Shown one piece after another: positions 34,864 through 63,420 of a DNA stretch of 64,000 bases. This DNA comes from Tautonia marina. GTDB lineage: Bacteria; Planctomycetota; Planctomycetia; Isosphaerales; Isosphaeraceae. Where the stretch lies: positions 1 through 64,000 of the forward strand of contig NZ_WEZF01000018.1 of the NCBI RefSeq assembly GCF_009177065.1. The letters are read 5' to 3'. The notes under the pieces were generated by a model. It was not told where the DNA came from. It did not search any database and was given only the letters and a program-made list of their open reading frames with translations. The position numbers were made by a program, and so were the translations under genes. Every line of letters starts with the position of its first letter. The first letter of the stretch is position 1.

Positions 34864-37809
34864 TCAGTCTTTGCGGACTGGGTTCTGGGCAATTGCTCCC
34901 GGAGCGAGGCCGGAACGTTCTAGCCGTGCGCGGCGATCGGCCACCATCGCCTGATACGCCCCCGAACTGGGCGCACGCCGTGACGCCTCCTCGGCCGCCT
35001 CGACAGAACGTCGTAGCGCGTCTCCCAACGCGTGCTCATCAACCGGCTCATGCTGCCAATGATTCTTGGCCACCTGGGTCCAGTACTCGCTGATCACAGC
35101 GAAATAATCCGGTTCATCCCTTGCCTCGGCAGGGATGGCCTCCAATGCCTTCCCGCACCAGGCGACAATCCTCTCCGAATCGCCGACGCACTCCGCAACT
35201 CGACACACAAACGCAAAATCGAGAATCTGCTTGATGTCGACGAGTGTCAGGTTTTCTGTCGGAGGAAGACGCTCGATCGACGTTATGCACAGACTGAAAA
35301 GAGCGGCAATCCGGTCACGCTGGGCATCGGTTTGCGCGTGAGCCCGGGCTTGTGATAGACCACTCAGTACAGCAGATCGCTGATCGATTGTAAGATCACG
35401 CTCATCAAGGATTTTTTGAATCCGATCCAAACAGTCCTGGAACGTCGGCTGCGGTATAGTCTGATGGGTAAGGATTCGCCCGAGTGAGCTGAACGTACCA
35501 ATGTAGAAGGGATCGTATCCGGGCTCCGGTTCGGGAAACCGACCTCGTCGAACGTCGATCGACGTCATCAGTCGGTCGAGAGCGTCCGTCGCCTCATCCA
35601 ACCTGCCCAAGTCGAGCAAGGAAAGAATCATCAATGTCAAGGTGTGGTGAAGTGTCCCGACGACATCGGGATTGCCGGGCGATTCATCGGCTTCGCGTTC
35701 AAACAAAGGAAGGCAAGGCCCCAGCAGCGTGACAATCTCGGCGGCGGTCCGCAGGTGCCTTCGATTTTCGTCTTGATCGCCCGCCAGCTCGATCCCGTAG
35801 AACATGCTCGTGGCCAGCGAGTATCGGTCCCTGAGATTGATGCCTTCTCTTACCAGACGACGACGAATCGCAAGCTCTGCATCGATATCTCCCAGATTCT
35901 GGTAGACGTTCGCCAGGTGGGCCAACGTGTTGTGGTCGTCAGGAGCAGTCTCAAGATGCCCCTCCAGCATCACCTTGGCTTCGATCAGCACTTGGCGACC
36001 GGACTCGTCGCCGCAGGCAATCAGATGAGGCCCAATGATCGTTCGTTCCATGGCAGCACGGCGTTGGTTCAACGTAAGAGGCCGGTCGCCAGGCGGGCCA
36101 TCGCAGAGCTCAAGCGATCGTTTAAGGACCCGGATCGCTTCGGGGAATTCTTGCAGTTTAATGAGCATCTGACCATGCCATTGATACAAGGAGGCTGTAT
36201 CATGGCGCAAGTTGTCGTCCGGGACATGAGCAAGTGCGGCGTCAAGGGTCTCTGAACCCTCTCGGAAAAGGCGAGCTGCTTGTGTCGGCCGCCCCTCGTG
36301 GGCTCTGCGATAGCCGAGTTGATAGACCATCTGGCTCATGGTCCGGAGAAGATCCAGATCATTCGGCCGACTGCGAAGCAGTTCGCGGCAGGCGGGCAGT
36401 GCAGCTTCGAGCTCGTCAAGCGACTCCTCACCCCGAGGTATGCTTGGGTTGTCGGCCCTGCTTACAATCGCAAGTAACCGGCCGGCGGCCTGAAACATCT
36501 GCTCGGCTTGCTGGCGATTGGACTCGGCCTCGGCCCGGCGTCGCTCGGCTTCGCGAGAGCGTTCGAGCGCCAGACTCTCATTGGCGGCAGCCTCGGAGCG
36601 TGCCGCCTCCGCGCGTCCGAGCAAGACCAGCGACGTGGCGCTGGTGAGTGCCAGCCCCATCATCAACGCCGATCCCACCGGATGCCGACGAACGAACCGC
36701 GACGACCGTCGCACCGGCCCCATCGGTCGGGCGAGGATGGTCCGGCCTTCGAGGAATGAATCGAGGTCGTCGGCCAGGGCTTCGGCCGTTGCATAGCGAC
36801 GATGCGGGTCTCGTTCGAGACACTTCAGAGCAATCGTCTCCAGGTCTCTCGGGAGTTTCCTGACGATGCTCCGAGGCAGGGTCGCGCTCCCTTCCAGCAC
36901 CCGGGCCAGTGTCTCCTGAGGAGATGCCTCCTGAAACGGCGGCCGACCGACCAGTAAGCAGTAAAGAATTGCCCCCAGCGCATAAATATCCGCAAATGTC
37001 TCGCTCTTCGCTCCGCTCCCCTGGACCAGTTCGGGGGCCATGTATTCGGGAGTCCCGATCCCGGCAAGGGTCAGCGATCGGGCCGATTCGCCGATCGGCC
37101 GAGCCAGGCCGAAATCCGCGACCTTGGGCCACCAGGCCGAAGTCGGAGCATCGCTCGGCGAATCGATCAGAATGTTCCCTGGTTTCAAGTCGCGGTGAAT
37201 CAAGCCCCGAAGGTGCATATGATGCACCACCCGCGCGACCCGACCGAGCAATCGGGCCGCGTCCCGGAAGGGCATCAACGGTTTGTTGCGTAGGCGATTG
37301 GCGAGGGATCCCCCTGCCACGTACTCCATCACCAGATAGGGATATCCGTCGGTCATCCCCACGTCGTACACCTGCACGGCGTCGGGGTGCCGGACCTGAG
37401 CCGCGGCCCGAGCCTCGGCCAGGCACCAGGCGCGCCATCTCGGGTCGGCCAGGGGACCGCCGGGAAGAACCTTGATCGCCACTTCGCGGTGCATCGCGGT
37501 CTGCCAGGCCTTGAAGACGGTCCCCATCCCGCCCCGGCCTAGCCGGTCGCCCATCACAAACCCTTCGATCTTCGGTGCCAGTCCTACCGGTTCGGCACTG
37601 GTCGCCGCCAGCCCAAAGAACGCAGACGCGTTGTCCGGAAATGCCGTGCCGACGGCCTTCTGCGCCACTCCCTCCATCTGCTCCAGGCAGTTCAGACACT
37701 CCAGAATGTGCAACTGGATGGCGTGAAGTCGTGAATCGACCTGAATCAGATCATCCGGAGCTCTCAGAAACTGGTCGATCTCGGCGGAGGTCGGGCAGGA
37801 CTGGCTCAT
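34864..37809 (-). CDS. Membrane Ser/Thr protein kinase with N-terminal anti-sigma-like Zn motif and TPR-like region
   Basis: This 981-residue protein starts with a short helical domain carrying H34-x3-C38-x2-C41, the spacing of the zinc anti-sigma (ZAS) motif. A Hanks-type kinase domain follows (about residues 83-355): GRGGMGTVFKAW loop, K113, HRDLKPGN with D207, DFG at 232-234, and GTPEYMAPE. A membrane segment lies at about 378-397, then a coiled coil and helical TPR-like repeats to the end. The gene overlaps the ECF sigma gene by 4 nt (ATGA), so translation is coupled. A role in controlling that sigma factor by binding, phosphorylation or both is inferred. All kinase catalytic residues look intact. 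Confidence 0.9.
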   Translation of the reverse strand: MSQSCPTSAEIDQFLRAPDDLIQVDSRLHAIQLHILECLNCLEQMEGVAQKAVGTAFPDNASAFFGLAATSAEPVGLAPKIEGFVMGDRLGRGGMGTVFKAWQTAMHREVAIKVLPGGPLADPRWRAWCLAEARAAAQVRHPDAVQVYDVGMTDGYPYLVMEYVAGGSLANRLRNKPLMPFRDAARLLGRVARVVHHMHLRGLIHRDLKPGNILIDSPSDAPTSAWWPKVADFGLARPIGESARSLTLAGIGTPEYMAPELVQGSGAKSETFADIYALGAILYCLLVGRPPFQEASPQETLARVLEGSATLPRSIVRKLPRDLETIALKCLERDPHRRYATAEALADDLDSFLEGRTILARPMGPVRRSSRFVRRHPVGSALMMGLALTSATSLVLLGRAEAARSEAAANESLALERSREAERRRAEAESNRQQAEQMFQAAGRLLAIVSRADNPSIPRGEESLDELEAALPACRELLRSRPNDLDLLRTMSQMVYQLGYRRAHEGRPTQAARLFREGSETLDAALAHVPDDNLRHDTASLYQWHGQMLIKLQEFPEAIRVLKRSLELCDGPPGDRPLTLNQRRAAMERTIIGPHLIACGDESGRQVLIEAKVMLEGHLETAPDDHNTLAHLANVYQNLGDIDAELAIRRRLVREGINLRDRYSLATSMFYGIELAGDQDENRRHLRTAAEIVTLLGPCLPLFEREADESPGNPDVVGTLHHTLTLMILSLLDLGRLDEATDALDRLMTSIDVRRGRFPEPEPGYDPFYIGTFSSLGRILTHQTIPQPTFQDCLDRIQKILDERDLTIDQRSAVLSGLSQARAHAQTDAQRDRIAALFSLCITSIERLPPTENLTLVDIKQILDFAFVCRVAECVGDSERIVAWCGKALEAIPAEARDEPDYFAVISEYWTQVAKNHWQHEPVDEHALGDALRRSVEAAEEASRRAPSSGAYQAMVADRRARLERSGLAPGAIAQNPVRKD

Positions 37810-38480
37810 TGTTCGTCCCCTGAGTCATCCATCTCGTCCCAAATCTGCCTAAGCATGGCGAGCACGCGTGCTCTGGCTGCTCGAACCGCGCCAGGTGTCT
37901 TGCCCAGGGCCAGCGCGGCCTCGGCCGGTGATCGGCCCTCGATCTGCACCAGCCAGAACGCCTCCCAGGTGTCCCGGCCGAACCGCTCTCGGGCCAGTGC
38001 CTGAGCGCGGGCGATGCGATCGCGAAGCACCCGCCAGGAATGCGGCACGTCCCGCTCGTCTCCCTGATCCTCATCGAGAGATTGGGGATCAACGACTGGC
38101 CAGGCCCATTGCGTCGGGTCGACGGCCATCATCTTCGTCCCCGCCGCCTGAGCGTCCTGGTCACGTTCCCAGAAGTTCAGAATCGTGCTTCGCGTCAGCG
38201 TTCTTAACCAGCCTCGGAACGATTTCGAAGGATCATAGGCAAAGCGCTCTATCGTTCTCGCGAGCCGGATCAGGACCCGCTGGACGATTTCTTCGGTCTC
38301 CGCCTCTCTCAAACCATGCCTTCGGCACTCGTCACGAACGACGGGAAGGCACCACTTCACAAACTCATTCCAGGCCTGAAGATCGGACCAGACCCGAACG
38401 CGCAACAGCAGGCTGGGTCTGGTCCTCGGCTCAGACTTCGGCTCGTCCGACCTCGACGATCCCGGAGACATGTCTGCCAT
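37806..38480 (-). CDS. ECF-type RNA polymerase sigma factor, kinase-associated
   Basis: The 224-residue protein has a sigma-70 region 2 (EIVQRVLIRLARTIERFAYD, then SFRGWLRTLTRSTILNFWER) and a region 4 helix-turn-helix (RSPAEAALALGKTPGAVRAA). ATG 38480 is chosen because it follows GAGGGTGGCGAG. The open frame extends a further 164 codons upstream, but that part has no sigma homology. A long acidic linker separates the two regions, as in planctomycete ECF groups associated with Ser/Thr kinases. Its stop overlaps the kinase start, making sigma and kinase one coupled unit. Target promoters are unknown; the adjacent divergent surface protein is a candidate. Confidence 0.9.
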   Translation of the reverse strand: MADMSPGSSRSDEPKSEPRTRPSLLLRVRVWSDLQAWNEFVKWCLPVVRDECRRHGLREAETEEIVQRVLIRLARTIERFAYDPSKSFRGWLRTLTRSTILNFWERDQDAQAAGTKMMAVDPTQWAWPVVDPQSLDEDQGDERDVPHSWRVLRDRIARAQALARERFGRDTWEAFWLVQIEGRSPAEAALALGKTPGAVRAARARVLAMLRQIWDEMDDSGDEQ

Positions 38481-38870
38481 CTCGCCACCCTCGCGTGCGC
38501 GTTTGGTGTACTGATCAATGACAGGGACTCTGCACGGGCTCATGCTCCGATGTTGCAACGAGCATACGCCCCTGCGCGTTCTCGGTCCAGCCGTTTCATC
38601 ACCTTTTGCGCATCTTTGATTCGCGCAAAGTTGGTCCGATCGCCGTTTGCGCCGACGGTCGGAGATGAGGCAGCCGCTTCCTTCATCACGCTCAAATCGT
38701 TCTCCAATTCGATGAGCTCCGAGTCGTGTTCGACCACACGTTGCCAACCGTTCAACCTGACCGTTCCACGCGATGATCCGTAGCGTCGTGCCTTCCCCTT
38801 CGAGGCATCGCACGGACGTTTCGTTCTCCCGAGAACGACTGCCCCCCAGCTTTCTTGAGGACCCCACTCG
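38481..38870. other. Divergent promoter region between ECF sigma and surface protein
   Basis: About 390 bp between divergent genes. Open frames crossing it are without family features. It must contain the promoters for both genes, so any site recognised by the adjacent ECF sigma would be expected here. I did not identify a clear -35/-10 pair by eye. Confidence 0.5.
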
Positions 38871-41800
38871 ATGCTCCCGATCCTCCCCCGATCGTCCATG
38901 CCTCAGGCTTCCGCCGGTCGTCGGCTCCCACTCGATCCATCTCGATCGGCACGCCGACGTGTAGCCTTGCAACCCTACCTCGAAGGGTTGGAGCGCAGGG
39001 AGTTACTCACGGACGTTTCGGGCCCTATAGTCACCGACCGCACCTACACCGACCCAAGCGATCCGATTGTCTTTGTTGGAGACACTCGGATTGAGCAGGG
39101 GGCCACACTGACGATCGGTCCAGGAGTTCCGGTCACAATCAATCGCGGGGCCACGCTGACCGTCAACATTGGGGAGTTCGTCGTCGACAACAGTGGAACA
39201 TTCCGGCTTGAGGGTCCGAGGGTCGGCGACTCACGGTACGGGAGAATCGTCGTCGCGGCCAACGGCGTGATGAACGTGACCGGCACCACCATCACGGACA
39301 GCGGCTCCGATATTGCTTCCATCGACGTCCAGAGCGGCGGACGGTTGCGGGCCAGCAACAGCACGATCGACCTGGGCCAAATCATCCTCCGCAATGGCAG
39401 CCGGCTCGACGAAGGCGACCTGGTCGGCAACCGCATCGACTCCTCCCTGAGCATCAATGCCACCGACCTGCACAAGCTCGACGACAACCGACGCTTCCAG
39501 GACATCAACATCAACCCGGGCGGGCTCGGAGCGGGGCAGGCTGCCGAACTCTCCCTCAGGGGCACAGAAACCACGGAATATCTGCGATATACGTTTGGTG
39601 GTTCGTTCGTCATCGATACCGGGGCAGCCTTGACGGTTCGCCCAATGGTCGATGTCCTGATCCAACGTGGTTCGACACTAACCGTCGGTGGGACGCTGTC
39701 CGTCGATCAGGCCAAAACCATCCGGCTTGAGGGTCCGAGGGTCGGCGACTCACGGTACGGGAGAATCGTCGTCGCGGCCAACGGCGTGATGAACGTGACC
39801 GGCACCACCATCACGGACAGCGGCTCCGATATTGCTTCCATCGACGTCCAGAGCGGCGGACGGTTGCGGGCCAGCAACAGCACGATCGACCTGGGCCAAA
39901 TCATCCTCCGCAATGGCAGCCGGCTCGACGAAGGCGACCTGGTCGGCAACCGCATCGACTCCCCCCTAAGCATCAACGCCACCGACCTGCACAAGCTCGA
40001 CGACAACCGACGCTTCCAGGACATCAACATCAACCCGGGCGAATTGCAGTCTGGAGAGGCCGTTGAACTGCGGACGATTGGGACTGAGTCCATCAACGAA
40101 TTGCGGTTTGTGTTTCCGGGGAATTTTTTGATCGGGAATGGTGCGTCGTTGGCTGTCCGGCCAAGCGTTTCGGTCCTGCTTCGTCGCGGTTCGACCCTCA
40201 CTGTGGGCGGGACGCTCTCGGTCGACAATGGTGGGCCGTTCCAGTTTGAAGGGCCAAGGGTGGGCGACTCAAGGTACGGGATCATCGTCGTCGCGGCCGA
40301 CGGCCTGATGGATGTGACGAAAACGTCCCTCTCCGGCTCCACTTCGACCCTCATCCGTGTCCAAGAGGACGGCAGCCTGAGTGCCACCGGAAGCACGTTC
40401 GACGTGTCTCGTCTCGTCCTGGAGGATGGATCGACGGCCTCTCTGCTCTCCAGTTTTCTCAATCATCGACTTGAGGTCCATAGTGGGGCCAACATCGACA
40501 TTACCGGAAATAGCATCGACGTCACGAACGCTGCAGAAGTCTTCGCCATCGGTGACCCATCCACCGAAATCGACATGCGGTTCAACTACTGGGGGACCTC
40601 CGTAACCTCTCAAATTGAGGACAAGATTACTCATCGACCTGATAACGATCCCTCCACTCGGCCGCGTGTGATTTATCAACCATTCCTTTCCAACGCAGAA
40701 GACCCGAGCCCTGGTGTACTCGTCCTGCCTCGGTCCGGCCTCATCACGACTCCCGTCAAGACAGCGACGTTCAGCGTTCGTCTTGAGAGCCAGCCAACAG
40801 AACCGGTCACCATCAACCTGAGCAGCTCAAACCCGTCGATCGGTAATCCGAATGTCGAATCGCTCCTTTTTACCCCCGAGAACTGGAACACTCCCCAGGT
40901 CGTGACGATTGAGAGCACCTCGGAAGATGAAGCCGATTACTCGATCATCACCTCGGCGGCAATCAGTGAGGACGATCTCTACGACGGGCGCATCGTGGCC
41001 GATGTGCTGGTGAGGAATCTCGGCTCCTCGACCTCCAATGTCAGCGTCGAGTCGGATGCCATCGTGGAAATCAACGAGTCGGGCGAACAAGGCTCCTTCG
41101 ACATCCGACTGATTCGGCGGCCGACCGCTCCAGTGACGATCACCCTCACCAGTTCGAACCCGGACGAAGGGGAACTCTCGCAATCGTCCATCACCTTTAA
41201 CACCGACGACTGGGCCACCCCTCGTACGATCACGGTCACGGGCAAGCCTGACTATCAACGCGACGGCGACACCACGTACACGATCAATGGGAGCACCTCC
41301 AGCAACGATCGCATGTTCGACGGCTGGCCGTTTCCGGAGGTCACGGTTGTCAACCGGGACATCGACACCGCTGAGGTGCTCGTGGACAGACCTTCGAACC
41401 TGTCGACCACCGAGGCCGGGGGCACAGCTCAGTTCTCCGTCCGGCTCAGTTCGCGGCCGACGGCGCCGGTCACGGTGAATTTCTCCAGCTCCGACCCGTC
41501 GGAAGGGAACCCCGTCCAACCGTCCCTGACTTTCACGGCAGCGAACTGGTCCACCCCGCAAACCGTGACCGTCCGGGGTGCCGATGACGACAACGCCGAC
41601 GGCAACATCTCCTACACCATCCGCGGCATCGCCACCAGCGACGACCCGAACTTCGATGGGGTCGAGGTGGCCGAATTCCCGGTCGTCAACGTCGACAACA
41701 ATTCCTTCGCGATTCTTGCATCGCCCACCTCGAATCTGTCCACAACCGAGGCAGGTGGCACAGCTCGATTCTCCGTCCGGCTCGGGGCCAGGCCCAGCGC

Positions 41801-43547
41801 CCCGGTGACGGTCGATTTCACCAGCTCCAACACGTCGGAAGGCGTGCTGCCGCAATCGTCTCTCACCTTCACCGAGACGAACTGGTCCATCCCCCAGGAG
41901 ATCACGGTCCGGGGCGTCGACGACGATGTCGCCGATTTCAACATCGTCTACCAGATTTCCGGCCTCGCCCGTAGCACCGACCCTGACTTCGACGGACTCG
42001 CGATGCCGGCCGTTTCAATTGCGAATGTGAATAACGACACAGCCGGCGTCACTGTTTCGCAATCGAACCTGGCCATCAACCGGGTGCCGGGGCCGAACCA
42101 CTCGGGCACCTTCACCGTCGCGCTCAACTCGCAACCGATCGGCAATGTGACGTTTGCGATATCCTCTGAGAATTCGTCCCAGGCCGAAGTTGATGTCAGT
42201 TCCATCACCTTCACCACAGCCAACTGGAACGTCCCGCGCACCGTGACCGTCACCGGTGTCTATGATGGAACACCTGCCAATCCGGCACCGTTCCCGGTGG
42301 TCGTGGAAGTCTCCTCGTCGAACGATCCGAACTACCCGGTCGGCACCCGTGAAACCGTTCAGGTCACCGAATCTCGACAGCAAATCGAGGTCGAAGGGGA
42401 CTACGACGGCGACGGTCGGGCCGACCTGGCCCTGTATCACTTCGACGAGGACCGGGGGGTCGGTGTCTTCTCGATCCGCCGCTCCTCCGACGGCCAGACC
42501 CAACAGATCGACCTCGCCGACATCGGACGCAACTCCGTGCCGATCTCCGGCGACTTCGACGGCGACGGCATCACCGACGTCGCCGTGAGTGACCCTTACG
42601 CCATCGTCGGCGATGGTTCCGTGCCGAATGCCACGGGCTGGGTTTTCTTGCTCTCAGGGAGCAACAACAATCGGCGAGATTTCCGATTTGGAGCCCCCGG
42701 CACGCTCGACCGCCCCGCTCCGGCCGACTTCGACGGCGACGGCATTACCGACATCGCGACCTTCCGCGCCAGCAGCGATCTCACCCCTGGGGCCGCCGAG
42801 TGGTTCATCCTTCCCTCAGGAGGGGGATCCGCGTTCCGAGTGGCGTTCGGTGCACCGGGCGGCCTGGACCTGCCCGCCCCGGCCGACCTCGACGGCGACC
42901 GTCGGGCCGACATTGTCACATTCCGCCCCGAACGGACCGCAGAGGACATCGCCAATGGAGTACCCGATGCCGCACAGTGGTTCGTCCTCCCCTCCAGCCT
43001 CAATGACCTGGAGTTCAGCAAGCGAGACGGGGCTTTCGGCTATACATTCGGTGCCTCGGGCAATGCGGACCAGCCCTCAGTCGCCGACTTCAACAACGAC
43101 GGCCGCGCCGACATCGTCGCTTTCCGATCAGTCAGCGACCTCGCCCCCGGCTTCGCCCAGTGGTTCACCTTGCCCTCATCGGGCGGTCCGACAACGTTCG
43201 CGAATGGTTTCCAGGTGACCTATGGCTCTGCCGGCGAGATCGCCGCTGTCGCTGATTACGACGGCTACGGCCGGCCCAGTTACACGGTCTTCAATTCCCT
43301 GACGGGGGACTGGACCATCGACGCGGCCAACACCAACGGCCAACCTTTCGGGAATCCCCGAACCGTCCGTTTCGACCCGACGGGACAACGTGGGGTTCCC
43401 GTGCTTAGCCCCTTGTGGTTCCGCATTGAGGCGACACGGGGAGAGGAAACTGCCAGCGCGATTGCAAGCGCTCGGCACTCAAACCGCCTTCAACTGCTTC
43501 CATCGCTGGTTGATCAACTATTATCCGATCTCGCCGCAGACTCCTGA
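38871..43547 (+). CDS. Giant surface/extracellular repeat protein (beta-helix-like repeats, Calx-beta-like repeats, FG-GAP)
   Basis: The 1558-residue protein has the planctomycete N-terminal secretion motif LEGLERRELLT (about residues 37-47). Three parallel-beta-helix-like modules follow; the first two carry a 107-residue block that is almost identical (39202-39522 and 39721-40041). Next are about five Calx-beta-like repeats, each with a STTEAGGTAQFSVRL-type opening and VTV...SLTFTxxNWSTPQTVTV core. The C-terminal part has FG-GAP/VCBS motifs (DYDGDGRADLALYHF, DFDGDGITDIATF, DLDGDRRADIVTF, DFNNDGRADIVAF). It ends in a short polar tail. A cell-surface or secreted adhesive role is inferred from domain type. 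It is divergent from the ECF sigma gene. Confidence 0.9.
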   Translation: MLPILPRSSMPQASAGRRLPLDPSRSARRRVALQPYLEGLERRELLTDVSGPIVTDRTYTDPSDPIVFVGDTRIEQGATLTIGPGVPVTINRGATLTVNIGEFVVDNSGTFRLEGPRVGDSRYGRIVVAANGVMNVTGTTITDSGSDIASIDVQSGGRLRASNSTIDLGQIILRNGSRLDEGDLVGNRIDSSLSINATDLHKLDDNRRFQDININPGGLGAGQAAELSLRGTETTEYLRYTFGGSFVIDTGAALTVRPMVDVLIQRGSTLTVGGTLSVDQAKTIRLEGPRVGDSRYGRIVVAANGVMNVTGTTITDSGSDIASIDVQSGGRLRASNSTIDLGQIILRNGSRLDEGDLVGNRIDSPLSINATDLHKLDDNRRFQDININPGELQSGEAVELRTIGTESINELRFVFPGNFLIGNGASLAVRPSVSVLLRRGSTLTVGGTLSVDNGGPFQFEGPRVGDSRYGIIVVAADGLMDVTKTSLSGSTSTLIRVQEDGSLSATGSTFDVSRLVLEDGSTASLLSSFLNHRLEVHSGANIDITGNSIDVTNAAEVFAIGDPSTEIDMRFNYWGTSVTSQIEDKITHRPDNDPSTRPRVIYQPFLSNAEDPSPGVLVLPRSGLITTPVKTATFSVRLESQPTEPVTINLSSSNPSIGNPNVESLLFTPENWNTPQVVTIESTSEDEADYSIITSAAISEDDLYDGRIVADVLVRNLGSSTSNVSVESDAIVEINESGEQGSFDIRLIRRPTAPVTITLTSSNPDEGELSQSSITFNTDDWATPRTITVTGKPDYQRDGDTTYTINGSTSSNDRMFDGWPFPEVTVVNRDIDTAEVLVDRPSNLSTTEAGGTAQFSVRLSSRPTAPVTVNFSSSDPSEGNPVQPSLTFTAANWSTPQTVTVRGADDDNADGNISYTIRGIATSDDPNFDGVEVAEFPVVNVDNNSFAILASPTSNLSTTEAGGTARFSVRLGARPSAPVTVDFTSSNTSEGVLPQSSLTFTETNWSIPQEITVRGVDDDVADFNIVYQISGLARSTDPDFDGLAMPAVSIANVNNDTAGVTVSQSNLAINRVPGPNHSGTFTVALNSQPIGNVTFAISSENSSQAEVDVSSITFTTANWNVPRTVTVTGVYDGTPANPAPFPVVVEVSSSNDPNYPVGTRETVQVTESRQQIEVEGDYDGDGRADLALYHFDEDRGVGVFSIRRSSDGQTQQIDLADIGRNSVPISGDFDGDGITDVAVSDPYAIVGDGSVPNATGWVFLLSGSNNNRRDFRFGAPGTLDRPAPADFDGDGITDIATFRASSDLTPGAAEWFILPSGGGSAFRVAFGAPGGLDLPAPADLDGDRRADIVTFRPERTAEDIANGVPDAAQWFVLPSSLNDLEFSKRDGAFGYTFGASGNADQPSVADFNNDGRADIVAFRSVSDLAPGFAQWFTLPSSGGPTTFANGFQVTYGSAGEIAAVADYDGYGRPSYTVFNSLTGDWTIDAANTNGQPFGNPRTVRFDPTGQRGVPVLSPLWFRIEATRGEETASAIASARHSNRLQLLPSLVDQLLSDLAADS
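39202..40041 (+). repeat. Near-identical internal tandem repeat in the surface protein gene
   Basis: Two 321-bp blocks (39202-39522 and 39721-40041, offset 519 bp or 173 codons) differ at only about three positions, all silent or conservative. The DNA between them has diverged. A third, diverged module follows at about 40240-40560. Such high identity at DNA level points to recent duplication or gene conversion, with the potential for length variation. Confidence 0.85.
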
Positions 43548-43617: not shown

Positions 43618-46263
43618 TCACCTCGCTCCCTCTCCCCTACCCTCTGGGTGCACGCCAACCCCTGCCCAATGGGACGAACGAAGAAGGAGGTGCTCGTTCT
43701 CTCGTTCGATCAGTTGACCATAGAGTTCCAGGAACACCGCGTTCGTCCAGGCGAAGCCCGATTCGTTCGTGGTGTCGCCAAATCGAATGTCAAGGTCCGA
43801 TTCCCGGCGAACCACGTCGTATTTCTCAAAGGTTGCCCGATGCTCGGCGAACTCGTCGAGCACCATCGAGAGAAACGCGACGCAGATCCGGTCAGCCACC
43901 TCATGGTGACCATAGCGCCGCAATCCTTGAACCGCGATCAGGTGCATTGGCGCCCAGCCGATCGGAGCATCCCACTGGCTACCACTCTCATTGGTACTGG
44001 TTTGCAACCCGCCGGGCCGTTCAAAAAGGTGCAAATTTGCCACAACCCGATCGGCCTGACCTGCGTCAGCAAGCCCGGCCCAGAGTGGATAGAAAGTCGT
44101 CACGAAGGGATATCGTCCCAGCTTTTTTTCGACGAACTGATAATCATAGTACAACCCATCTTCTTCGTCCCACATCAGTTCGTTCATGGTCGACTGCCTC
44201 TGTTTCGCACGACCAATCCAGCCCGCCGCAGCTTCTTTGCGATCGAGTATTATCAGGATTTCGCCCAAATCCGACTCCATCACGAACAACAACGCATTGA
44301 GACAAACCGGGTTGTAATTCACGACCTCAACCCCGAACGGACCGAATCGATCCGTCGGGTTGAAGCCCGATTCTCGCATGGAGCGATCGCCCTGATAGAA
44401 CCGCGAAGTTAACTCTCCGTTCTGGAAGTAGGCTTGGACATCGTATTCCCTGACAAGATATTTCTCGAAGTATTCGGAAACACGATCGTAATGTGTCCTG
44501 CCGAGCCGATCCCGTTCCTTCGAGATCACCTCGGGCGCCGGCCCCCAACCTGCATCGTAATAGCGCGAGAGGCCCGTATCCGACACCAGATGCGGCGCTT
44601 CGGTCCAGTAGCGGTGATACGCTTCAATTCTGGGAACGGATTCCTCCAGCCAGGCCCGAGCCCTGGTGGGATCCCGACGTGAAAACTCGTCGTAGACTCC
44701 GAGAATCATCCGAGTGAGAAACGGCGGCTGGGAACGTGTTAGATAATCGGTATGATTGGCGTTTAGAATCTTACCGTAGTGATCGATCTCGTAGAGGAAA
44801 TTGTCGACCATCTCCTTGGCCAGATGAACGTTGCCGGAGCGGAGAAGGCCAAGCTGAATGAAGTAGCTATCCCATCCATACATCTCCTGAAACCGCCCGC
44901 CAGGAGCAATGTAGGCATGGGGAAGGAAGAGTGGACCAGGCTTCTGGGCCACTTCTGATGGAATCGGACGAGGAGCAGCCTGACTGGTCCGTCTCAAGGT
45001 ATTCCATCCACGATCGATCTCAAGAATCAGCGAACGCAACTCCGAACGTCGCCGAATCTGCTCCATCCGATCGACCAGTTGGCCTTGCACAACCACCGCG
45101 GCTCCCGCCACGAGACTGAGCGATGCAAATCCGAGGATCAATCCAAGGGCCGCCGCCGAAGGCCGACGGCGGGCCCACCGCCAGGCTTTGACCCAGGGTC
45201 CAACTGGTCGGGCCTGGATGGGAAGACCGGATCGCCAGCGAACCAGGTCCGCAGCCAACTCCTCTGCCGAGTCGTAACGATTGGCCGGATCTTTCTCCAG
45301 GCATTTCAGGCAAATCGTCTCCAGGTCACGATCCACTCGCCCGTTGATTCGACTCGGAGGCTTGGGTGGTTCTTCCCGGACCATTGACAGCGTCTCGAGC
45401 ACCGTAGAGCCACAAAAGGGCGGCCCTCCGGTGAGTAACGCATACAGGATGACTCCGAGTCCGTACACATCGGTCGCCGTGGTCACAGCTCCACGATCAC
45501 CCGACGCCTGCTCCGGAGCCATGTACGGCGGTGAACCACAAATATCTCCCGATCGGGTCAGGTCCGAGGCGTCCTCGATTCGCTTTGCCAGACCGAAGTC
45601 GGTGATATGCGGTTGCCCGTTCCCATCAAGCAGAATATTCGACGGCTTGAGATCGCGGTGCAAAATCCCGCGTCGGTGGGCATACTCCACAGCTCTGGCG
45701 ATCGTGATCATCAGTTCGGCGGCGGCCTGAGGATCGTCTCGAAATTGAGATAAACGCTCGGCCAGATCTCCCCCACGGAGTAGCCTCATGCTGAAATAAG
45801 GATTCCCTTCGTACTCTCCGATTTCATAAATCGGGACAATGTTCGGATGATCAAGTCCAGCAATGACCTCAGCTTCGGTCCGAAATCGCAAGAGTTCCGA
45901 TTCGGATGCAGGACTCCCAGATCGGATCAACTTCAACGCAACCAACCGCCCCAGACTGAGTTGACGAGCCTCGTGCACGATTCCCATACCGCCTCGGCCG
46001 AGGAGGTCAAGTAACTCATAGTCGCCGAAACGTTGCTCCGGATGAACTTGACTCTCTTCCCTTTGAGTCGGCTCCTTGAAATCGCCAGCGACCTCATCGG
46101 CAGTCCATGAGCACGTTTCCTCCCCATCTCCGTCAGATCCAACCCGATCCGACAGGGTATCATCGAGGAGAACCTGCCTGACCACACAGGAGGGGCAAAG
46201 AGGACCAAGAGCATCGGATGAGAGAATCGCCCCACACCGGGGGCAAGGCACGTGCGGAATCAT
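43618..46263 (-). CDS. Membrane Ser/Thr kinase fused to a GH37 trehalase-like domain
   Basis: This 881-residue protein has three parts. A zinc-ribbon (C7, C10, C23, C26) precedes a Hanks-type kinase domain (about residues 80-345): [11 protein letters not shown] loop, K111, HRDLKPSN with D204, DFG at 222-224, and [11 protein letters not shown] membrane helix follows (about 371-392). The last 440 residues are a trehalase-type (GH37) domain with both trehalase signatures, [14 protein letters not shown] (454-467) and [10 protein letters not shown] (763-772), and EKYD at 813-816, where the catalytic base is expected. In the block that holds the catalytic acid of E. coli trehalase (ESGWDFSSRW), this protein reads [10 protein letters not shown], so Asn635 replaces Asp. 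The trehalase part is predicted outside the cytoplasmic membrane. It may be a trehalose sensor rather than an enzyme. Confidence 0.88.
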
Positions 46264-46633: not shown

Positions 46634-47527
46634 CTACTTATCTTGTTTGGTAGAGAGCGCTTCGAATCCTGCCGCGACATCAAGCAATTCCTCAGTAATC
46701 GCAAGCTGACGGCGCTGCTGGTAAAGCATGGTGAGTTCGACAATACGTTCTTCGATATTTCGCTCGGCCCCCTGCATCGATGCGAGTCGGCTCGCGTTTT
46801 CGCTGGCCAAGGACTCGGCGAAGGCTCGATAGAGCGAGACAAACAAATACTCATGAACAAGCGAGGAAAAGAGGCGGTCCCGGTTCATGGTAAACATAGG
46901 AACCTGATTCGTCGGCCATTTCCGTTCCTGCAACGTATGAAGCCAATGGTCATCAATGGGCAAAAGATGCGTTGTGCGAGGACGATACGAGGCTCCAGAA
47001 TGGTGCTCCGCATAGAACAGCAACACCTGATCGATTTGCCATTCGTCTCGCCAGCGGTCAATTCTCAGAAGAAGATCCTGTACAGCGGGTGTGATCCCGG
47101 AAGTTGAGCCAGGAACCGATGCGGTCCCTTCGAGCGGTTGCCCTGCATCTTCGAGCCGCCCTGCGATGCGATGACCGACAGCGAAAAGTGCTCGTCCTTC
47201 ACGATCGACTCCAGAGGCATCCATTTCGTCGATCGCATGACGGGCCACGTCGTCGTTGAGTTGGCCGCACATCCCTTGATCCGATCCGAAGACAACCGCC
47301 CCGAGGTTTCGACGGGGGGCATTGCGCGTCACGACCCGTGATCGCGGAACTTGCCGAAGCACAATTTGCAAACCCATCTCGACCGCTCGACGATACTGAT
47401 CGAGCGAACGTTCCGCCTCCTCATACTGACGAATATTCACGACCGCAAGTGCTTTCATTGTCTTGACAACCGAGTATAGATCTTCCGCGGTCGCCAGTTT
47501 GTGCTTCAGGATCTCGGTTGTCTGCAT
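46634..47527 (-). CDS. atpG: N-ATPase F1 subunit gamma
   Basis: This 297-residue gamma subunit forms the central rotor shaft of the ATPase. It has the N-terminal helix with LYSVVKTMKALAVVNIRQYE, the Rossmann part with VVFGSDQGMCGQLND, and the C-terminal helix with SLYRAFAESLASENASRLAS followed by AERNIEERIVEL. Length is within the family range. It is the last gene of the operon and starts 3 bp after the atpA stop, so translation is coupled. Sequence is more divergent than housekeeping F-ATPase gamma, as expected of N-ATPases. Confidence 0.93.
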   Translation of the reverse strand: MQTTEILKHKLATAEDLYSVVKTMKALAVVNIRQYEEAERSLDQYRRAVEMGLQIVLRQVPRSRVVTRNAPRRNLGAVVFGSDQGMCGQLNDDVARHAIDEMDASGVDREGRALFAVGHRIAGRLEDAGQPLEGTASVPGSTSGITPAVQDLLLRIDRWRDEWQIDQVLLFYAEHHSGASYRPRTTHLLPIDDHWLHTLQERKWPTNQVPMFTMNRDRLFSSLVHEYLFVSLYRAFAESLASENASRLASMQGAERNIEERIVELTMLYQQRRQLAITEELLDVAAGFEALSTKQDK

Positions 47528-47530
47528 CTG

Positions 47531-49150
47531 CTAACCCCTGGCTTGATCGTGCTCGGAGTCGTCCAGGTTTCGGTGTTCAGCCTGCGAGGCGTGATCGTCG
47601 AACTCGGATTGAGGACTCGCCAATCGATGCCTCTCGATCACCGTTCGAGCAACTTCAACGATGGCATGCCGATCGACCTCTTCCAGTGGTTTCCCCGACT
47701 GAATTCGCTCACATACCTCAGGCAATTGCGCTGTAACGGCCTCTCGGACACGTGCTTCCAGTACCATGACACGCTCGACTGGAACCTTGTCAAACAGGCC
47801 ATGATTAATCGCAACAAGCGCGGCGAGTTGCTGAGGGACTGGCAACGGATCGTACTGGGCCTGTTTCAGGACCTCTCGGACCCGACGACCCCGTTCGAGC
47901 GACCTGCGTGTTTCTTCTTCAAGCCGGGTTCCGAATCGTGCAAACGCCTCCAACTCCTGGAATTGGGAGTACGCGAGTTTCAAATCGCCCGCGACCGCCC
48001 GGTACGCCGGCAACTGAGTCTTCCCTCCCACGCGAGACACCGATCGCCCAACCTCGATCGCCGGAAGAATTCCTTTGCGGAACAGGTCTGGCGAAAGGTA
48101 AATCTGCCCATCGGTGATCGAGATCAGGTTCGTGGGGATGTATGCTGAGAGGTTCTGTGCCTCGGTCTCAACGATCGGCAGTGTCGTCAGCGAACCCCCT
48201 CCTAGCTCGTCGTTGAGGTGGGTCGACCGCTCGAGCAATCGAGAATGAATATAGAAAATATCGCCTGGAAATGCTTCACGTCCTGGTGGGCGTCGCAGCA
48301 AGAGTGACAACTCGCGATACGCCCAGGCGTGCCGAGTCAGATCATCCAGGACCACCAACACGTCTCGACCTCGATCTCTGAAGAATTCTCCCATGCTCAT
48401 TGCCGCATAGGGCGTTACAAACTGCAAGCCAGGAGGATCTTTCTCGGAAGTGGCGACGACAATGGTTTTCTCTCGAATTCCGAAGGTTTCAAGGTCGTCC
48501 ACAAGCTTTGCGACCGCCGACATCCGCTGGCCAATCGCACAGTAGACGCAAAGTACCTCCGTATCGCGCTGATGAATCATCGCGTCGAGTGCAATGGCCG
48601 TCTTGCCAGTCTGCCGATCACCAAGAATCAGCTCCCGCTGACCCCGCCCAACAGGAATCAGCGCATCCACAACCTTTAAACCTGTTTGGAGCGGTACTTT
48701 CACAGGGGCCCGATCCATGATTCCAGGAGCTGGCCGCTCGATCGGCAACCGCTCCCGGGTTTTCAGCGGAGCCCCCTCGTCAAGTGGACGTCCCACCGCG
48801 TCGACAACCCTTCCCAGCAACGACGCTCCGACCGGGACATCGAGCACCCGCCCCGTTCGTCGCACCTCAGCTCCTGCCGACAAACCCGTGCTGTCATCGA
48901 GGAGGACGATGCCGACTTCCTCAGGATCGAGGTTGAACGCCATCCCGAGAGCGTTCCCGGGGAACCGAATGACTTCTCGAGCCCGAACTTCCGCAAGACC
49001 GCTGGCCCGGGCAACACCTCTCCCGACAAACGTCACACACCCGACCGCTTCAACGACCGGCTCCACCCGGTACGCTTGTACGGTACGATCCACCACATCG
49101 AATGTCTCTTCAAGGATCCCGAGGAGTCGTCCGTTCGCATCCCATTCCAT
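47531..49150 (-). CDS. atpA: N-ATPase F1 subunit alpha
   Basis: The 539-residue alpha subunit carries the non-catalytic nucleotide site, with Walker [16 protein letters not shown] and the family blocks [17 protein letters not shown] and [23 protein letters not shown] 49150 is preceded by GGCGGAATC rather than a strong ribosome site. An in-frame extension upstream exists without obvious homology. A 126-bp gap separates it from atpF, the largest gap within this operon. It forms the hexamer with AtpD around the gamma shaft. Confidence 0.94.
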
Positions 49151-49276
49151 CTGATTCCGCCCTGTTTCGTTGAGGCGTTGACGTCGATGATCCCTCGGTT
49201 CTGGAGAATCACTCGTGAGATTCTCGATCGTGCAGGTTTCTCGATCGCTCAGACTCCTCCCGACTTCTCGACGCTC

Positions 49277-50128
49277 TCAATGTGCCTCCGAGTCGGAGAT
49301 CTCATGACGGATCGCACTCGACAGTTCTTCCAGCAATTCATTGAGATAGTCGAAGATGTCCCAGGCCAATTTTCGACCATCGGCATTCAACTCAAACCCG
49401 CAGATAAGGCTCGGATCGGTCTCAAATCGCAAATCGAACTCACCTCCGAGGTCATTACGGAGACGTTCGGAAATTGAGGCTCGCTGGTGATCAGGGAATT
49501 CGAAGGCACTTCGAAGAATCGGTCTGTGGTTCGGGTTCCGGAGCGACTCCCGAAGTCCGTCTCGATGACCTCGATCCAGCATTTCCAGCTGTCTGAAAAA
49601 CGTCTTCAGAACCTGCTGTTCCAGATCGGCATCCGCCAGGTCAACAAGCGCTCGCCTGGCTATCGAGCAGGTACCTTCCGCTGCTCGCCGCCGGAGTTCT
49701 GCGAGAAACGCCTCCTGATCCTGTCGGAGTGCGTTGCGCCATTGCAATCGCATCTGTTCGACTTCGTCGCGAGCCTCGTCGATCAATTCCTCACGACGCC
49801 GACCGGCCTTCTTTTTGGCCTCGTCCAGAATTTCGTCTCCACGCTCGTTAAGCTCCCGAAGTCGTTGCCGGTAATGGTCTGCCTCATCCTTGGCCTCCTG
49901 CTGGCGCTGCTCCGCCTCATCCCACCGCGAGGCGATCTGCTCCTGACGCCGCTCCATTGCCTTGATGATTCGTCCATAGAGAAAGTGCCGGAGGAGGAAC
50001 ACCAGGATGAGAAAGTTGACGATCTGAGCAACGACGGTGAACCAGTGAACGAGTTCACCGTTCGATCCCGACGGCGCCGCATCGCGACCGGAAGCCTGGG
50101 CGAGAACCCAGAGGCACTCGATCAGCAC
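49277..50128 (-). CDS. atpF: N-ATPase F0 subunit b with C-terminal delta-like part
   Basis: The 283-residue protein has one N-terminal membrane helix (VAQIVNFLILVFLLRHFLYG, about residues 33-52) and a long charged coiled coil to about residue 150, as in subunit b. Its C-terminal 120 residues (including LRSAFEFPDHQRASISERLR and GFELNADGRKLAWDIFDYL) resemble the C-terminal part of subunit delta. The operon has no separate atpH, so this protein probably supplies both stalk functions, a known trait of N-ATPases. It starts 3 bp after the atpE stop. Confidence 0.9.
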   Translation of the reverse strand: MLIECLWVLAQASGRDAAPSGSNGELVHWFTVVAQIVNFLILVFLLRHFLYGRIIKAMERRQEQIASRWDEAEQRQQEAKDEADHYRQRLRELNERGDEILDEAKKKAGRRREELIDEARDEVEQMRLQWRNALRQDQEAFLAELRRRAAEGTCSIARRALVDLADADLEQQVLKTFFRQLEMLDRGHRDGLRESLRNPNHRPILRSAFEFPDHQRASISERLRNDLGGEFDLRFETDPSLICGFELNADGRKLAWDIFDYLNELLEELSSAIRHEISDSEAH

Positions 50129-50131
50129 GGA

Positions 50132-50416
50132 TCACCCCCCCCCGCCCGTCTGTTGCGTGAAGTAATCCCAAAACGGGTTTGCGAAAATCAGAATCATCGA
50201 CACAACAAAACAGTAAATCGCGGTTGATTCAATCATTGCGAGCCCCACAAAGAGGGTTCGAGTGATCGTATTACTTTCATCCGGCTGCTGAGCGAGCGCC
50301 GAGAGAGCCGATGCCACGGCTCGGCCCTCACCGAGCGCGGGGCCGATCGCCCCCAGTCCGATTGTCAATCCTGCCGTAAAGATCGAGATCATCCCGATCA
50401 ATCCAAGATTATCCAT
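50132..50416 (-). CDS. atpE: N-ATPase F0 subunit c (rotor ring)
   Basis: The 94-residue protein has two membrane helices joined by a polar loop (ALAQQPDESNT). Helix 2 carries E63-S64-T65 and Tyr68, matching the E65-S66-T67-Y70 sodium-ligand pattern of Ilyobacter tartaricus. In helix 1 the position equivalent to Gln32 is Glu30 (GEG), giving two carboxylates per subunit, a feature reported for N-ATPases. Ion specificity cannot be settled by sequence alone, since double-carboxylate rings may bind H+ or Na+. The start overlaps the atpB stop by 8 nt. Confidence 0.93.
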   Translation of the reverse strand: MDNLGLIGMISIFTAGLTIGLGAIGPALGEGRAVASALSALAQQPDESNTITRTLFVGLAMIESTAIYCFVVSMILIFANPFWDYFTQQTGGGG

Positions 50417-51197
50417 GGTCCTTCAATCCTTCATGTCCCTGGGAGAGTTTCTGGTCATGCCCTTGCTTCTCATTCTGAACAATTAAGCGATACTCCTGGA
50501 CCTCCTCCTCCCGGACTCTGCTCGCAGAGGCAATATAGACCATCGCCAGCACCGCGAAGATGTAGGCCTGGATCACTCCAGTCAAGAGCCCGAGCACGTG
50601 CATGAGGACCGGAAAGATGAGCGGGGCCACGGCCATCAGGATTGCCACGATTTTGGTGCCGCTCATGACGTTTCCAAACAATCGCACAGCGAGCGCAAGC
50701 GTCCGAGACAGTTCACCGATCAGCGTAAACGGTAGCATCAACGGCGTCGGCCGGACAAAGTTTTTGAGATATCCCAATATGCCATCGTTGGCGATACTGT
50801 AAATCGGAACGGCGAAGAAGACACAAATCGCCAGGGCGGCGGTCGTTGAAAGAGAAGCCGTGGGTGCGACATAAACAAACCCGGGAACGATATTCAGCAG
50901 GTTCGAAACCAAGATGAAGAGAAACAGTGTGCCGATGAACGGCAAATATCGCTCCGGCCTTTGCTGAGTGATCTCGGCAATCTCACCCCGAATGCCATCG
51001 ACAATCACTTCTAGGAGATTCTGCCATCGAGAGATCTTCGGCCCTGTCGAAAGGCTTCGCGTCACCAGCCACGAACAAAAGACCAGAACGATCATCACCA
51101 CCCAGGTATATACCAGGGTGGCATTGACTGTTACAAATCGCCACTGCCAGAAGACAACCTCATCCGGGCTAATCTGCTTGAGATCCATCAGGTCCAC
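50409..51197 (-). CDS. atpB: N-ATPase F0 subunit a
   Basis: This 262-residue membrane protein forms the ion channel beside the c ring. It has about five to six hydrophobic helices, with the essential-arginine helix ELSRTLALAVRLFGNVMSGT and the QAYIFAVLAMVYIASA helix near the C-terminus. It starts 12 bp after the atpR stop and overlaps atpE by 8 nt. The C-terminal 30-residue charged tail (VREEEVQEYRLIVQNEKQG) is longer than in E. coli subunit a. Confidence 0.93.
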   Translation of the reverse strand: MDLMDLKQISPDEVVFWQWRFVTVNATLVYTWVVMIVLVFCSWLVTRSLSTGPKISRWQNLLEVIVDGIRGEIAEITQQRPERYLPFIGTLFLFILVSNLLNIVPGFVYVAPTASLSTTAALAICVFFAVPIYSIANDGILGYLKNFVRPTPLMLPFTLIGELSRTLALAVRLFGNVMSGTKIVAILMAVAPLIFPVLMHVLGLLTGVIQAYIFAVLAMVYIASASRVREEEVQEYRLIVQNEKQGHDQKLSQGHEGLKDHG

Positions 51198-51209
51198 GAT
51201 CCATTCTCC

Positions 51210-51512
51210 TCATCCCATTCGAGCCGGAACCCGATCAGGCCCCCAACGACGGATCATGACAGTCCGCACAGCAAGCAGGCCGACGAGACAGGCTGCAAGT
51301 CGTTCCCAGTGCCCGCCCATCACTACGAAGATCAACGGGAGACAGATCCCCAGTCTTCCGACAAAGCTGCCCAGCAGCAGTAACCCAGGCCGTCGGCTCG
51401 TCGGGAGTCGCCTTACCGTGAGCCAGAGGCCGCCGAACGCGATAGCGCCGATCAAGCCTCCGGCGGTGAAGGCGAGGATCAGGGGGACAACTGTCTCAGG
51501 ATCGAGGATCAC
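51210..51512 (-). CDS. atpR: N-ATPase accessory subunit AtpR, GTG start
   Basis: The product of 100 residues has three hydrophobic helices (VVPLILAFTAGGLIGAIAFG, then LLLLGSFVGRLGICLPLIFV, then a short third helix). Conserved Arg residues after helix 1 and in helix 2 (VGRLG) are typical of AtpR, a subunit diagnostic of N-ATPases. I choose GTG 51512 because AAGGAGA lies 6 nt upstream and GTG overlaps the antiporter stop as GTGA. ATG 51545 is also open but lies inside the antiporter gene. AtpR is thought to interact with the c ring or subunit a; its role is not fully known. Confidence 0.85.
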   Translation of the reverse strand: MILDPETVVPLILAFTAGGLIGAIAFGGLWLTVRRLPTSRRPGLLLLGSFVGRLGICLPLIFVVMGGHWERLAACLVGLLAVRTVMIRRWGPDRVPARMG

Positions 51513-53008
51513 GAAAAGTCTCCTTGCACTTTCGGCCTGAGCCATTGCCTCAGGAGTGGACGGAGCGAGAGGGGGGCGATCAGGCAGGTCCCCAGTACGA
51601 CAAGGACCATTGCCGAGAAAACCTCCGGTGGCACAACGTCGGAGCCCATCGCCCGCCCGCGCTCCACGATGACCATGGCGATCTCGGCGCGGGGCACCAT
51701 ACCAATCCCCAGCAGCAGCGAAGTCCTCCAGTCGGTTGACAACAGGGCCGGGACAGCGGTGCCGGCGACCTTCCCCACCACAGCAGCCACCAGCAGGAAC
51801 GTCCCAGGGCCGAGTGCCGACAAGAGCGCAGAGGGATCAATACTCAGACCGATACCGATAAAAAAGAACGGACTGAACAGGTCGTAGAGCGAGCTGAACG
51901 ATGCATCGATCTGCACCATCTCCGGGTCCCGACTGAAGACCAGGCCGGCAAAGAAAGCGCCGATCGCGATCGAGAAGCCCATGAACCCCGCGAGGGCTGC
52001 GATGACGAATCCCACCCCAACCACCAGTAGCATCGGGTCTGGCATCGGCTCGAGTTGGCGGAACCATCGGGTCATGCGTTCCTCGAGTCTCCTGGTGAAT
52101 ACGTAGCAGAATCCCAGGAACAAGGCGAAGAGGAAGGCGAACCGGCCCAGCGTCTTCAATAAGGTGGCAATGGGGAAGCCATCCCTCGGGCCAGCAGGCA
52201 AGAGGTTGAACAACGCGACCATCGCAACCCCGAAGAGGGCCGCGAGCGCAGCAACCCCGATCGCCACGGCTGCAATCCGCAACATCGGCTCTGGCAATCG
52301 CTCGTCAGTCCTGAACCACCTCCCCATCGGTCGCCGAAGCTCCCGAAAAATCAAGGAGCCGAAGAGCAAGATCGCCGCCGCGAGAAACACGGGGAAGACC
52401 AGCGTGTCGAGGTGCATCGACTCCTGGCTCACCTCTGCCGGAGGGGCCGACCCGGTCATGGCCGGGAGGAGCGCAAAGAGCACGGCCATCAGGAGTACGC
52501 CAGAGACGTCGTCGAGTTCGGCCACGTCAATCAGCCACTGTCCAGTCGATGTGTCGAGTGCGCCGGCCTCCTGCCAGACCGCAACCGAAACACCCACGCT
52601 CGTCGCCGTAAGCGCGGTGGCGATCACCAGGCTGGCGATCGTCCCCAGATCGAGCAACCAGTAAGCCGTGACGAAACCAAGCAGACCACTGATGCCGACA
52701 TTGCCGATCCAGGTGCGGGCGGCGGGCCCGATCTGGCTGATCAGCCCCGGCAGGTTACTCTCCAGACCGACCCGAAAAAGAAGGGCAATCAGTCCCAGAT
52801 CGGCGAGAAGACGAAACGTGGTGTATCCAGACTCGGAGAGAAGCTCCCAGCGGGCATCGCAGAGTCTCAGGAGGAATCCCAGAACGATCGAGCCGATTAG
52901 CGCCGGCACCCCAAGCCGCCGCAATCCCGACTTGCTCAGGATCGACAGGACGATCGCCACTCCGACGAGCAGCACCAGCCAGACCATCTCACCGGACGCC
53001 TCACTCAT
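51509..53008 (-). CDS. CPA2-type cation:proton antiporter embedded in the N-ATPase operon
   Basis: The 499-residue protein has 11-13 predicted membrane helices typical of CPA2 (Kef/NapA-like) Na+(K+)/H+ antiporters. It includes the acidic pair in LIDVAELDDVSGVLLMAVLF, an ADLGLIALLFRVGLE block, and AEIAMVIVERGRAMGSDVVP near the C-terminus. No C-terminal TrkA-N domain is present, which argues against a Kef K+ efflux channel. ATG 53008 overlaps the atpQ stop as ATGA, and its own stop overlaps the atpR start as GTGA. It is therefore translated as a part of the ATPase operon. The substrate cation is inferred from context to be Na+. Confidence 0.88.
   Translation of the reverse strand: MSEASGEMVWLVLLVGVAIVLSILSKSGLRRLGVPALIGSIVLGFLLRLCDARWELLSESGYTTFRLLADLGLIALLFRVGLESNLPGLISQIGPAARTWIGNVGISGLLGFVTAYWLLDLGTIASLVIATALTATSVGVSVAVWQEAGALDTSTGQWLIDVAELDDVSGVLLMAVLFALLPAMTGSAPPAEVSQESMHLDTLVFPVFLAAAILLFGSLIFRELRRPMGRWFRTDERLPEPMLRIAAVAIGVAALAALFGVAMVALFNLLPAGPRDGFPIATLLKTLGRFAFLFALFLGFCYVFTRRLEERMTRWFRQLEPMPDPMLLVVGVGFVIAALAGFMGFSIAIGAFFAGLVFSRDPEMVQIDASFSSLYDLFSPFFFIGIGLSIDPSALLSALGPGTFLLVAAVVGKVAGTAVPALLSTDWRTSLLLGIGMVPRAEIAMVIVERGRAMGSDVVPPEVFSAMVLVVLGTCLIAPLSLRPLLRQWLRPKVQGDFS
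51519..51525 (-). promoter_or_regulatory. Ribosome-binding site that sets the atpR GTG start
   Basis: AAGGAGA on the minus strand, 6 nt before GTG 51512, inside the 3' end of the antiporter gene. It supports the GTG start over the upstream ATG at 51545. Confidence 0.75.
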
Positions 53009-53308
53009 ATGCGGCTCTCCCGCTTCACCCAGAACCAGGCGTTGAGGCAACCCACGATAATACCGATTCCCAGGCCGGTCAGGGTCCAGGAGATCGTGTC
53101 GGATCGTCTGGTGTCAAGCAACACACCGATTGCCACACCGACCAGCGTCGGAATCGCCACCGACCAGCCCACCAGCCCGAACATTCCCAGCCCATACCAG
53201 AGGCTATAAGATTTGCCCTCACGGGCACGAGCTTTGCGCTCCGCCTTGCGACGGACGATGTCCTCAAGTGGCTCAGGCTGCTTCTGAAGATCTTGCGAGG
53301 CTCGATGG

Positions 53309-53319
<11 letters not shown>
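53005..53319 (-). CDS. atpQ: N-ATPase accessory subunit AtpQ (AtpI/AtpZ-like)
   Basis: From GTG 53319 the product has about 104 residues: a charged N-terminus (EDIVRRKAERKARAREGKSY) and two hydrophobic helices (GMFGLVGWSVAIPTLVGVAI and TLTGLGIGIIVGCLNAWFWV). This layout is that of AtpQ/AtpI proteins, thought to assist c-ring assembly. GTG 53319 is preferred over ATG 53361 because the extra 14 residues merely translate the atpC 3' end in another frame, and GGAG lies about 10 nt upstream of the GTG. The stop overlaps the antiporter start (ATGA). Confidence 0.82.
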
Positions 53320-55870
<2,551 letters not shown>

Positions 55871-63163: not shown

Positions 63164-63420
63164 GGATGAGCCGGGGTCCGGGACTGCCGCTCGCGGAGGA
63201 GCGATCGACCGATCTTGAAGACTCGGACACGCCAGCGAACCGCAACCGCGCCCTGCAGACAATTTCCGTCGCTGGACGCCACGCGATTCTCGATGATAGT
63301 CTATCATCCCAGAACAGATGATTCGAGTTGACGAAGCCGATCCTGGCCGGCGTTGTGGGTCGGAGGGGGCGGCCTCGTCGCCTCAAGGGCCGGTCTCATC
63401 AAGGCCGGACACAAACTCCG

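Follow-up and report, generated by a model that had tools for sequence, protein, structure and literature searches.

Planctomycetes contain, to our knowledge, dozens to hundreds of receptor-like Ser/Thr kinases, the ligands of which are almost all unknown. Among the single-pass kinases of this group periplasmic accessory domains are common and indeed the rule; architectures resembling each other may have emerged more than once (PMC11032199). In the transmembrane regulator RsgI6, a GH10 domain has kept its capacity for binding although its activity is very low (PMC4711584). Glycosidase domains thus do get recruited as sensors. Trehalases of family GH37 are inverting enzymes, in which the place of the catalytic acid is set by geometry. 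In TreA from E. coli, Asp312 has been named as the general acid (PMC7411730). PDB entry 7eaw is, according to its title, the acid mutant D380A of the Arabidopsis trehalase crystallised with trehalose, indicating that a GH37 protein lacking its acid is able to hold the sugar.

Here, we describe a gene from Tautonia marina that joins a Ser/Thr kinase to a GH37 domain with a replaced catalytic acid. It resides in a stretch of 64,000 nucleotides (contig NZ_WEZF01000018.1, positions 1 to 64,000), hereafter referred to as the window, and has the following layout:

43618..46263, minus strand: kinase-GH37 fusion gene, 881 aa, with a zinc-ribbon-like N-terminus, a Ser/Thr kinase, one membrane helix and a GH37 trehalase-like domain
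46186..46254, minus strand: zinc-ribbon-like CxxC...CxxC, residues 4-26 (PF13248, E=0.01, a weak match below the Pfam cut-off)
45262..46020, minus strand: Hanks-type kinase domain, residues 82-334 (PF00069, Pkinase, 6.5e-51)
45088..45156, minus strand: single transmembrane helix, about residues 370-392 (hydropathy scan)
43723..45063, minus strand: GH37 trehalase domain, residues 401-847 (PF01204, Trehalase, 7.3e-103)

The 881 codons form a single, uninterrupted open reading frame without internal stop. The fusion scores far beyond chance and has an orthologue in a second genome of the genus. All kinase motifs are intact, i.e. the ATP-binding lysine K111 (ALK, 109-111), the catalytic loop H202-R203-D204 (HRD) and D222-F223-G224 (DFG), as is typical of Hanks-type Ser/Thr kinases and in agreement with the initial annotation, which had pointed out K111, D204 and DFG. 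The one membrane helix that it had listed was recovered as well: in a simple hydropathy scan, residues 370-392 or thereabouts make up the sole strongly hydrophobic stretch, which lies between the kinase and the outer domain as in receptor kinases. It is directly preceded by the basic sequence RWARRRP, so that, following the positive-inside rule, the GH37 part would be placed outside the membrane. Membership of this part in the GH37 family and fold is evident from the significant domain match together with both trehalase signatures (14 residues at 454-467 and ten at 763-772); these signatures and an EKYD motif (813-816) are found exactly where they had been assigned. When compared with solved GH37 proteins by phmmer, the domain matched Nth1 with 4e-68 and TreA with 6e-52.

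The N-terminal module consisting of zinc-ribbon-like start, kinase and helix is common in the T. marina genome, in which the kinase half finds about 70 matches. Such numbers are usual for planctomycetes. A paralogue with 48% identity in the same genome bears WD40-type repeats instead and shares the zinc-ribbon-like CxxC motif. By sequence comparison, the kinase architecture would be one known in planctomycetes, with the GH37 sensor domain as the new part. Further kinase genes are present in the window, namely one for a WD40-repeat Ser/Thr kinase of 1289 aa (59438-63307, minus strand), the kinase domain of which is matched in two stretches, and one for a Ser/Thr kinase of 981 aa that immediately follows a gene with sigma-70 region 2 (ECF-like) (34864-37809 and 37806-38972, both minus strand), an apparent sigma-kinase pair.

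Three sites in the GH37 domain deserve closer inspection:

44746..44754, minus strand: His504-Thr505-Asp506, where the GH37-invariant Arg and Tyr (TreA R199, Y201) are replaced in both fusions (alignment)
44359..44361, minus strand: Asn635, codon AAC, at the GH37 catalytic acid position (TreA D312, Nth1 D478; alignment with E. coli TreA and yeast Nth1)
43825..43827, minus strand: Glu813 at the GH37 catalytic base position (TreA E496), retained (alignment)

Asn635 is the last residue of the sequence ESGFN (631-635), and Glu813 is the first of EKYD. The initial annotation had placed Asn635 at the catalytic acid, and it does land on TreA D312 and Nth1 D478 in the alignment. An aspartate is found at this position in all 22 other true GH37 proteins aligned (13 in a first alignment and nine further planctomycete proteins from a wider profile search), including the sister sequence from Granulicella, whereas both fusion proteins have Asn. 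In both fusion genomes this Asn is encoded by AAC; the Granulicella sequence has GAC. Of two residues that an active GH37 enzyme needs, the general acid is therefore missing and the general base is present. Overall, the fusions keep 35 of 39 GH37-invariant columns. The four lost ones are V453A, R504H, Y506D and the catalytic acid; the replacements yielding H504 and D506 go beyond the initial annotation. The losses fall mainly on the catalytic acid and on one conserved loop beside the substrate-binding Asn, which reads NANRTY in other GH37 proteins versus NANHTD or NANHSD in the fusions. Residues corresponding to TreA R152, W159, N196, R205, E279 and E496 and to Nth1 R473 are all kept. Among them are R457, N501, R510, E578 and R630 (TreA R152, N196, R205, E279 and Nth1 R473, respectively), which we take to be substrate contacts on the basis of general knowledge of TreA and Nth1. 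The position of TreA R277 is occupied by Ala, and the Nth1-like group also lacks Arg there. A distant, only partly matching GH37/MGH1-like protein from another Planctomycetota genome (L039 in G183) has ESGRN at the acid and WECY at the base; the acid may have been lost there independently.

The initial annotation had also suggested comparing a predicted structure with TreA. An AlphaFold2 model of the GH37 domain, built with three homologues only, has a mean pLDDT of 55.9 and superimposes on TreA with Z 24.8 and an rmsd of 4.0 over 327 aligned residues. At this low confidence the match confirms the fold only; the active-site loops have pLDDT values below 50, which makes this part of the model too poor to judge D506 or D638 as a substitute acid.

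A search for homologues combining both domains returned a single orthologue, in one of the three other Tautonia genomes (G003). It has 928 aa, is continuous and carries the same ESGFN with Asn at the position of residue 635. The remaining two genomes of the genus (94% and 99% complete) are free of GH37 and hence of the fusion, and no further fusion came up in overlapping sets of genomes from the family (45), the class (397) and the phylum (392). On plasmids none was evident, one Gemmatirosa match made up of two joined pieces with 33% identity having been left out; the scan of genome contigs gave three distant standalone GH37 proteins and no fusion, and scans of viral contigs gave no kinase-GH37 fusion either. 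In T. marina no second GH37 was found in the genome, so that the fusion is its only one. Among proteins that are not fused, the closest are a standalone GH37 protein encoded on a plasmid of Granulicella tundricola (WP_013572912.1, 42.8% identity) and a protein of a distant Planctomycetota genome (43% identity). A maximum-likelihood tree places both fusions as sister to the Granulicella protein (support 96/94), adjoining the group of yeast Nth1. As the sister sequence has the acid Asp, the change to Asn arose in the lineage of the fusion.

Between the two species the trehalase domain is 77% identical, and a block of 23 residues is the same in both fusion proteins. The dN/dS ratios between the two genes (Nei-Gojobori; values are rough as dS is near or above 1) amount to 0.113 and 0.111 for kinase and trehalase domain, respectively. 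They are higher in the N-terminal leader (0.33), the membrane helix (0.36) and the C-terminal tail (0.62). The trehalase domain is thus constrained equally with the kinase, and pseudogene decay of this half of the gene is rejected on this ground. An acid-less GH37 domain held as tightly as an intact kinase points to a role that needs its shape.

Relevant features in the surroundings of the gene, which may or may not belong to the same unit, are:

46634..55335, minus strand: N-type (alternate F1F0) ATPase gene cluster with genes for gamma, alpha, b, c, a, a CPA2 antiporter and beta, upstream of the fusion gene
1909-3153 of L084 (contig C37 of G003): gene for a TreT-like trehalose synthase, following that for N-ATPase gamma after 56 bp

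The ATPase cluster is transcribed in the same direction as the fusion gene, the start of which is separated from the gamma gene by 370 bp. Subunits gamma, alpha, b and a score above the cut-off of the NCBIfam 'alternate F1F0' models; subunit c is encoded at 50132-50416. The gene for the CPA2-type cation:proton antiporter (51509-53050, minus strand) is inserted between those for beta and the small subunits. In Aphanothece an N-type ATPase has been connected with salt stress, although that of Burkholderia is proton-selective (PMC5376962). On the other side, the fusion gene is faced in both species by a convergent gene, at 38871-43547 (plus strand) in the window, for an FG-GAP repeat protein of 1558 aa, which contains internal blocks that are nearly identical. 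Promoter and terminator scans of the locus gave scores no better than shuffled sequence, and Rfam elements were absent from the 64-kb window. The fusion gene and the ATPase cluster are alike in their G+C content (0.57, 0.58), which is below that of the window (0.615).

In two of the four genomes of the genus N-type gamma and the fusion occur together, and the other two have neither. The gamma subunit of G003 is an 80% identical orthologue, while in the two genomes devoid of the fusion the only gamma found is 24-25% identical and presumably that of the ordinary ATP synthase. The TreT-like protein of G003 resembles solved TreT-type structures (E values of 2e-100 and 2e-95) and matches the NCBIfam TreT model with 2.4e-103, below the strict cut-off that this model sets for Thermococcales. 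Its contig ends 66 bp past the gene, and another contig carries the fusion gene at a distance of about 250 bp from its start. It is possible that the two genes adjoin each other, the link being broken by the contig ends. The T. marina genome itself lacks TreT, with generic GT4 matches only, and the trehalose-6-phosphate synthase OtsA (PF00982) was not found in it; it encodes a TreS-maltokinase fusion and GlgE.

Taken together, we are inclined, with slightly better than even confidence, to regard the protein as a receptor kinase that senses trehalose or a related alpha-glucoside through its GH37 domain without hydrolysing it and that acts in osmotic or salt adaptation. For topology, loss of activity, ligand and signalling we infer the following scheme. 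The protein would be a single-pass membrane receptor Ser/Thr kinase with its N-terminal kinase in the cytoplasm and the C-terminal GH37 domain outside the inner membrane, where the latter would serve as a ligand-binding sensor rather than as a trehalase. With Asn in place of the general acid, cleavage of the glycosidic bond should be blocked or very slow, and the pocket may still hold trehalose or a closely related alpha-glucoside. Binding of the ligand could then shift the arrangement of the helix or of a dimer and thereby change kinase activity, and signalling might help the cell to adapt to osmotic or salt conditions, in concert with the N-type ATPase encoded nearby and the trehalose-handling enzymes TreT or TreS. 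The retained pocket and the nearby trehalose and ion-pump genes favour trehalose as the ligand. A narrower version, in which a dead trehalase has become a trehalose receptor that couples the level of this osmolyte to a salt-adaptation locus comprising N-type ATPase and TreT, is proposed here only tentatively, and we would not expect it to hold in all its parts.

The changes to H504 and D506 make another glucoside possible. The site may have been reshaped for a different glucoside, a glucosylglycerol-type osmolyte or the end of a glycan. Such a ligand is suggested by the replacement, in both copies, of two invariant residues of the NANRTY loop besides the acid, and by the Ala at the position of TreA R277, where the Nth1-like group has no Arg either. 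We consider it rather unlikely, because most substrate-contact residues are retained and a trehalose synthase gene lies near the counterpart locus in the sister species. It is less probable still that the outer domain has remained an enzyme, either with D506 or D638 giving the proton or with a reaction other than plain hydrolysis, which would make the protein a membrane-anchored trehalase joined to a kinase. The base E813 and most of the pocket have been preserved, a new Asp506 is present in an active-site loop of both copies, and the protein is the only GH37 of T. marina. Yet the acid Asp occurs in every other true GH37 protein compared, its place is geometrically fixed in an inverting enzyme, and the change to Asn has become fixed in two species.

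The loss of the catalytic acid and of two more invariant residues in the active-site region could also mean that the domain no longer binds sugar and is a structural or protein-interaction module, or that it is decaying. The preservation of pocket residues in both species and a dN/dS as low as that of the kinase leave this interpretation with little probability. Least of all do we believe in an artefact, i.e. an assembly or frame error joining a kinase gene to a trehalase gene. The genome is a draft of 80 contigs, but the reading frame is continuous and stop-free, and an independent genome contains the same continuous fusion next to the same convergent gene. A frame error, which the initial annotation had named as a way in which its reading could fall, is contradicted by these findings, and an error in sequencing or assembly is made unlikely by the orthologue.

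In accordance with what the initial annotation had presumed, the open-access literature searched contained no relevant report of a trehalase-kinase fusion or a pseudo-trehalase, and no described precedent for a GH37 sensor on a kinase. With the GH37 trehalases of the Nth1-like and Granulicella-like group (Nth1, PDB 5m4a; WP_013572912.1) the fusion shares the fold, both signatures, the base Glu and most contact residues; it differs by the Asn at the acid, by His and Asp instead of Arg and Tyr in the loop and by its placement behind a kinase and a membrane helix. With planctomycete receptor-like Ser/Thr kinases (zinc ribbon, kinase, helix, and WD40, TPR or other domains) it has the same N-terminal module in common, but a GH37 fold takes the place of C-terminal WD40, TPR, sulfatase-modifying or DUF1080 domains. 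The outer domain stems from a family of narrow substrate range whose active site is well mapped, and it is precisely the ligand-destroying residue that has been lost, which provides a concrete and testable ligand hypothesis for one planctomycete kinase. The engineered Arabidopsis variant D380A (PDB 7eaw) likewise is a GH37 protein without its acid; it has Ala instead of Asn and no kinase. The closest functional precedent is RsgI6 from Clostridium thermocellum, a single-pass signalling protein with an outer domain that is derived from a glycosidase, binds and hardly cleaves; binding by the fusion is predicted. The two are not homologous: RsgI6 is an anti-sigma factor with a GH10 domain for polysaccharide, while the fusion is a kinase with a GH37 domain for what we propose to be a disaccharide. 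If our interpretation is true, the fusion would clearly exemplify the conversion of an enzyme into a sensor, in parallel to RsgI6.
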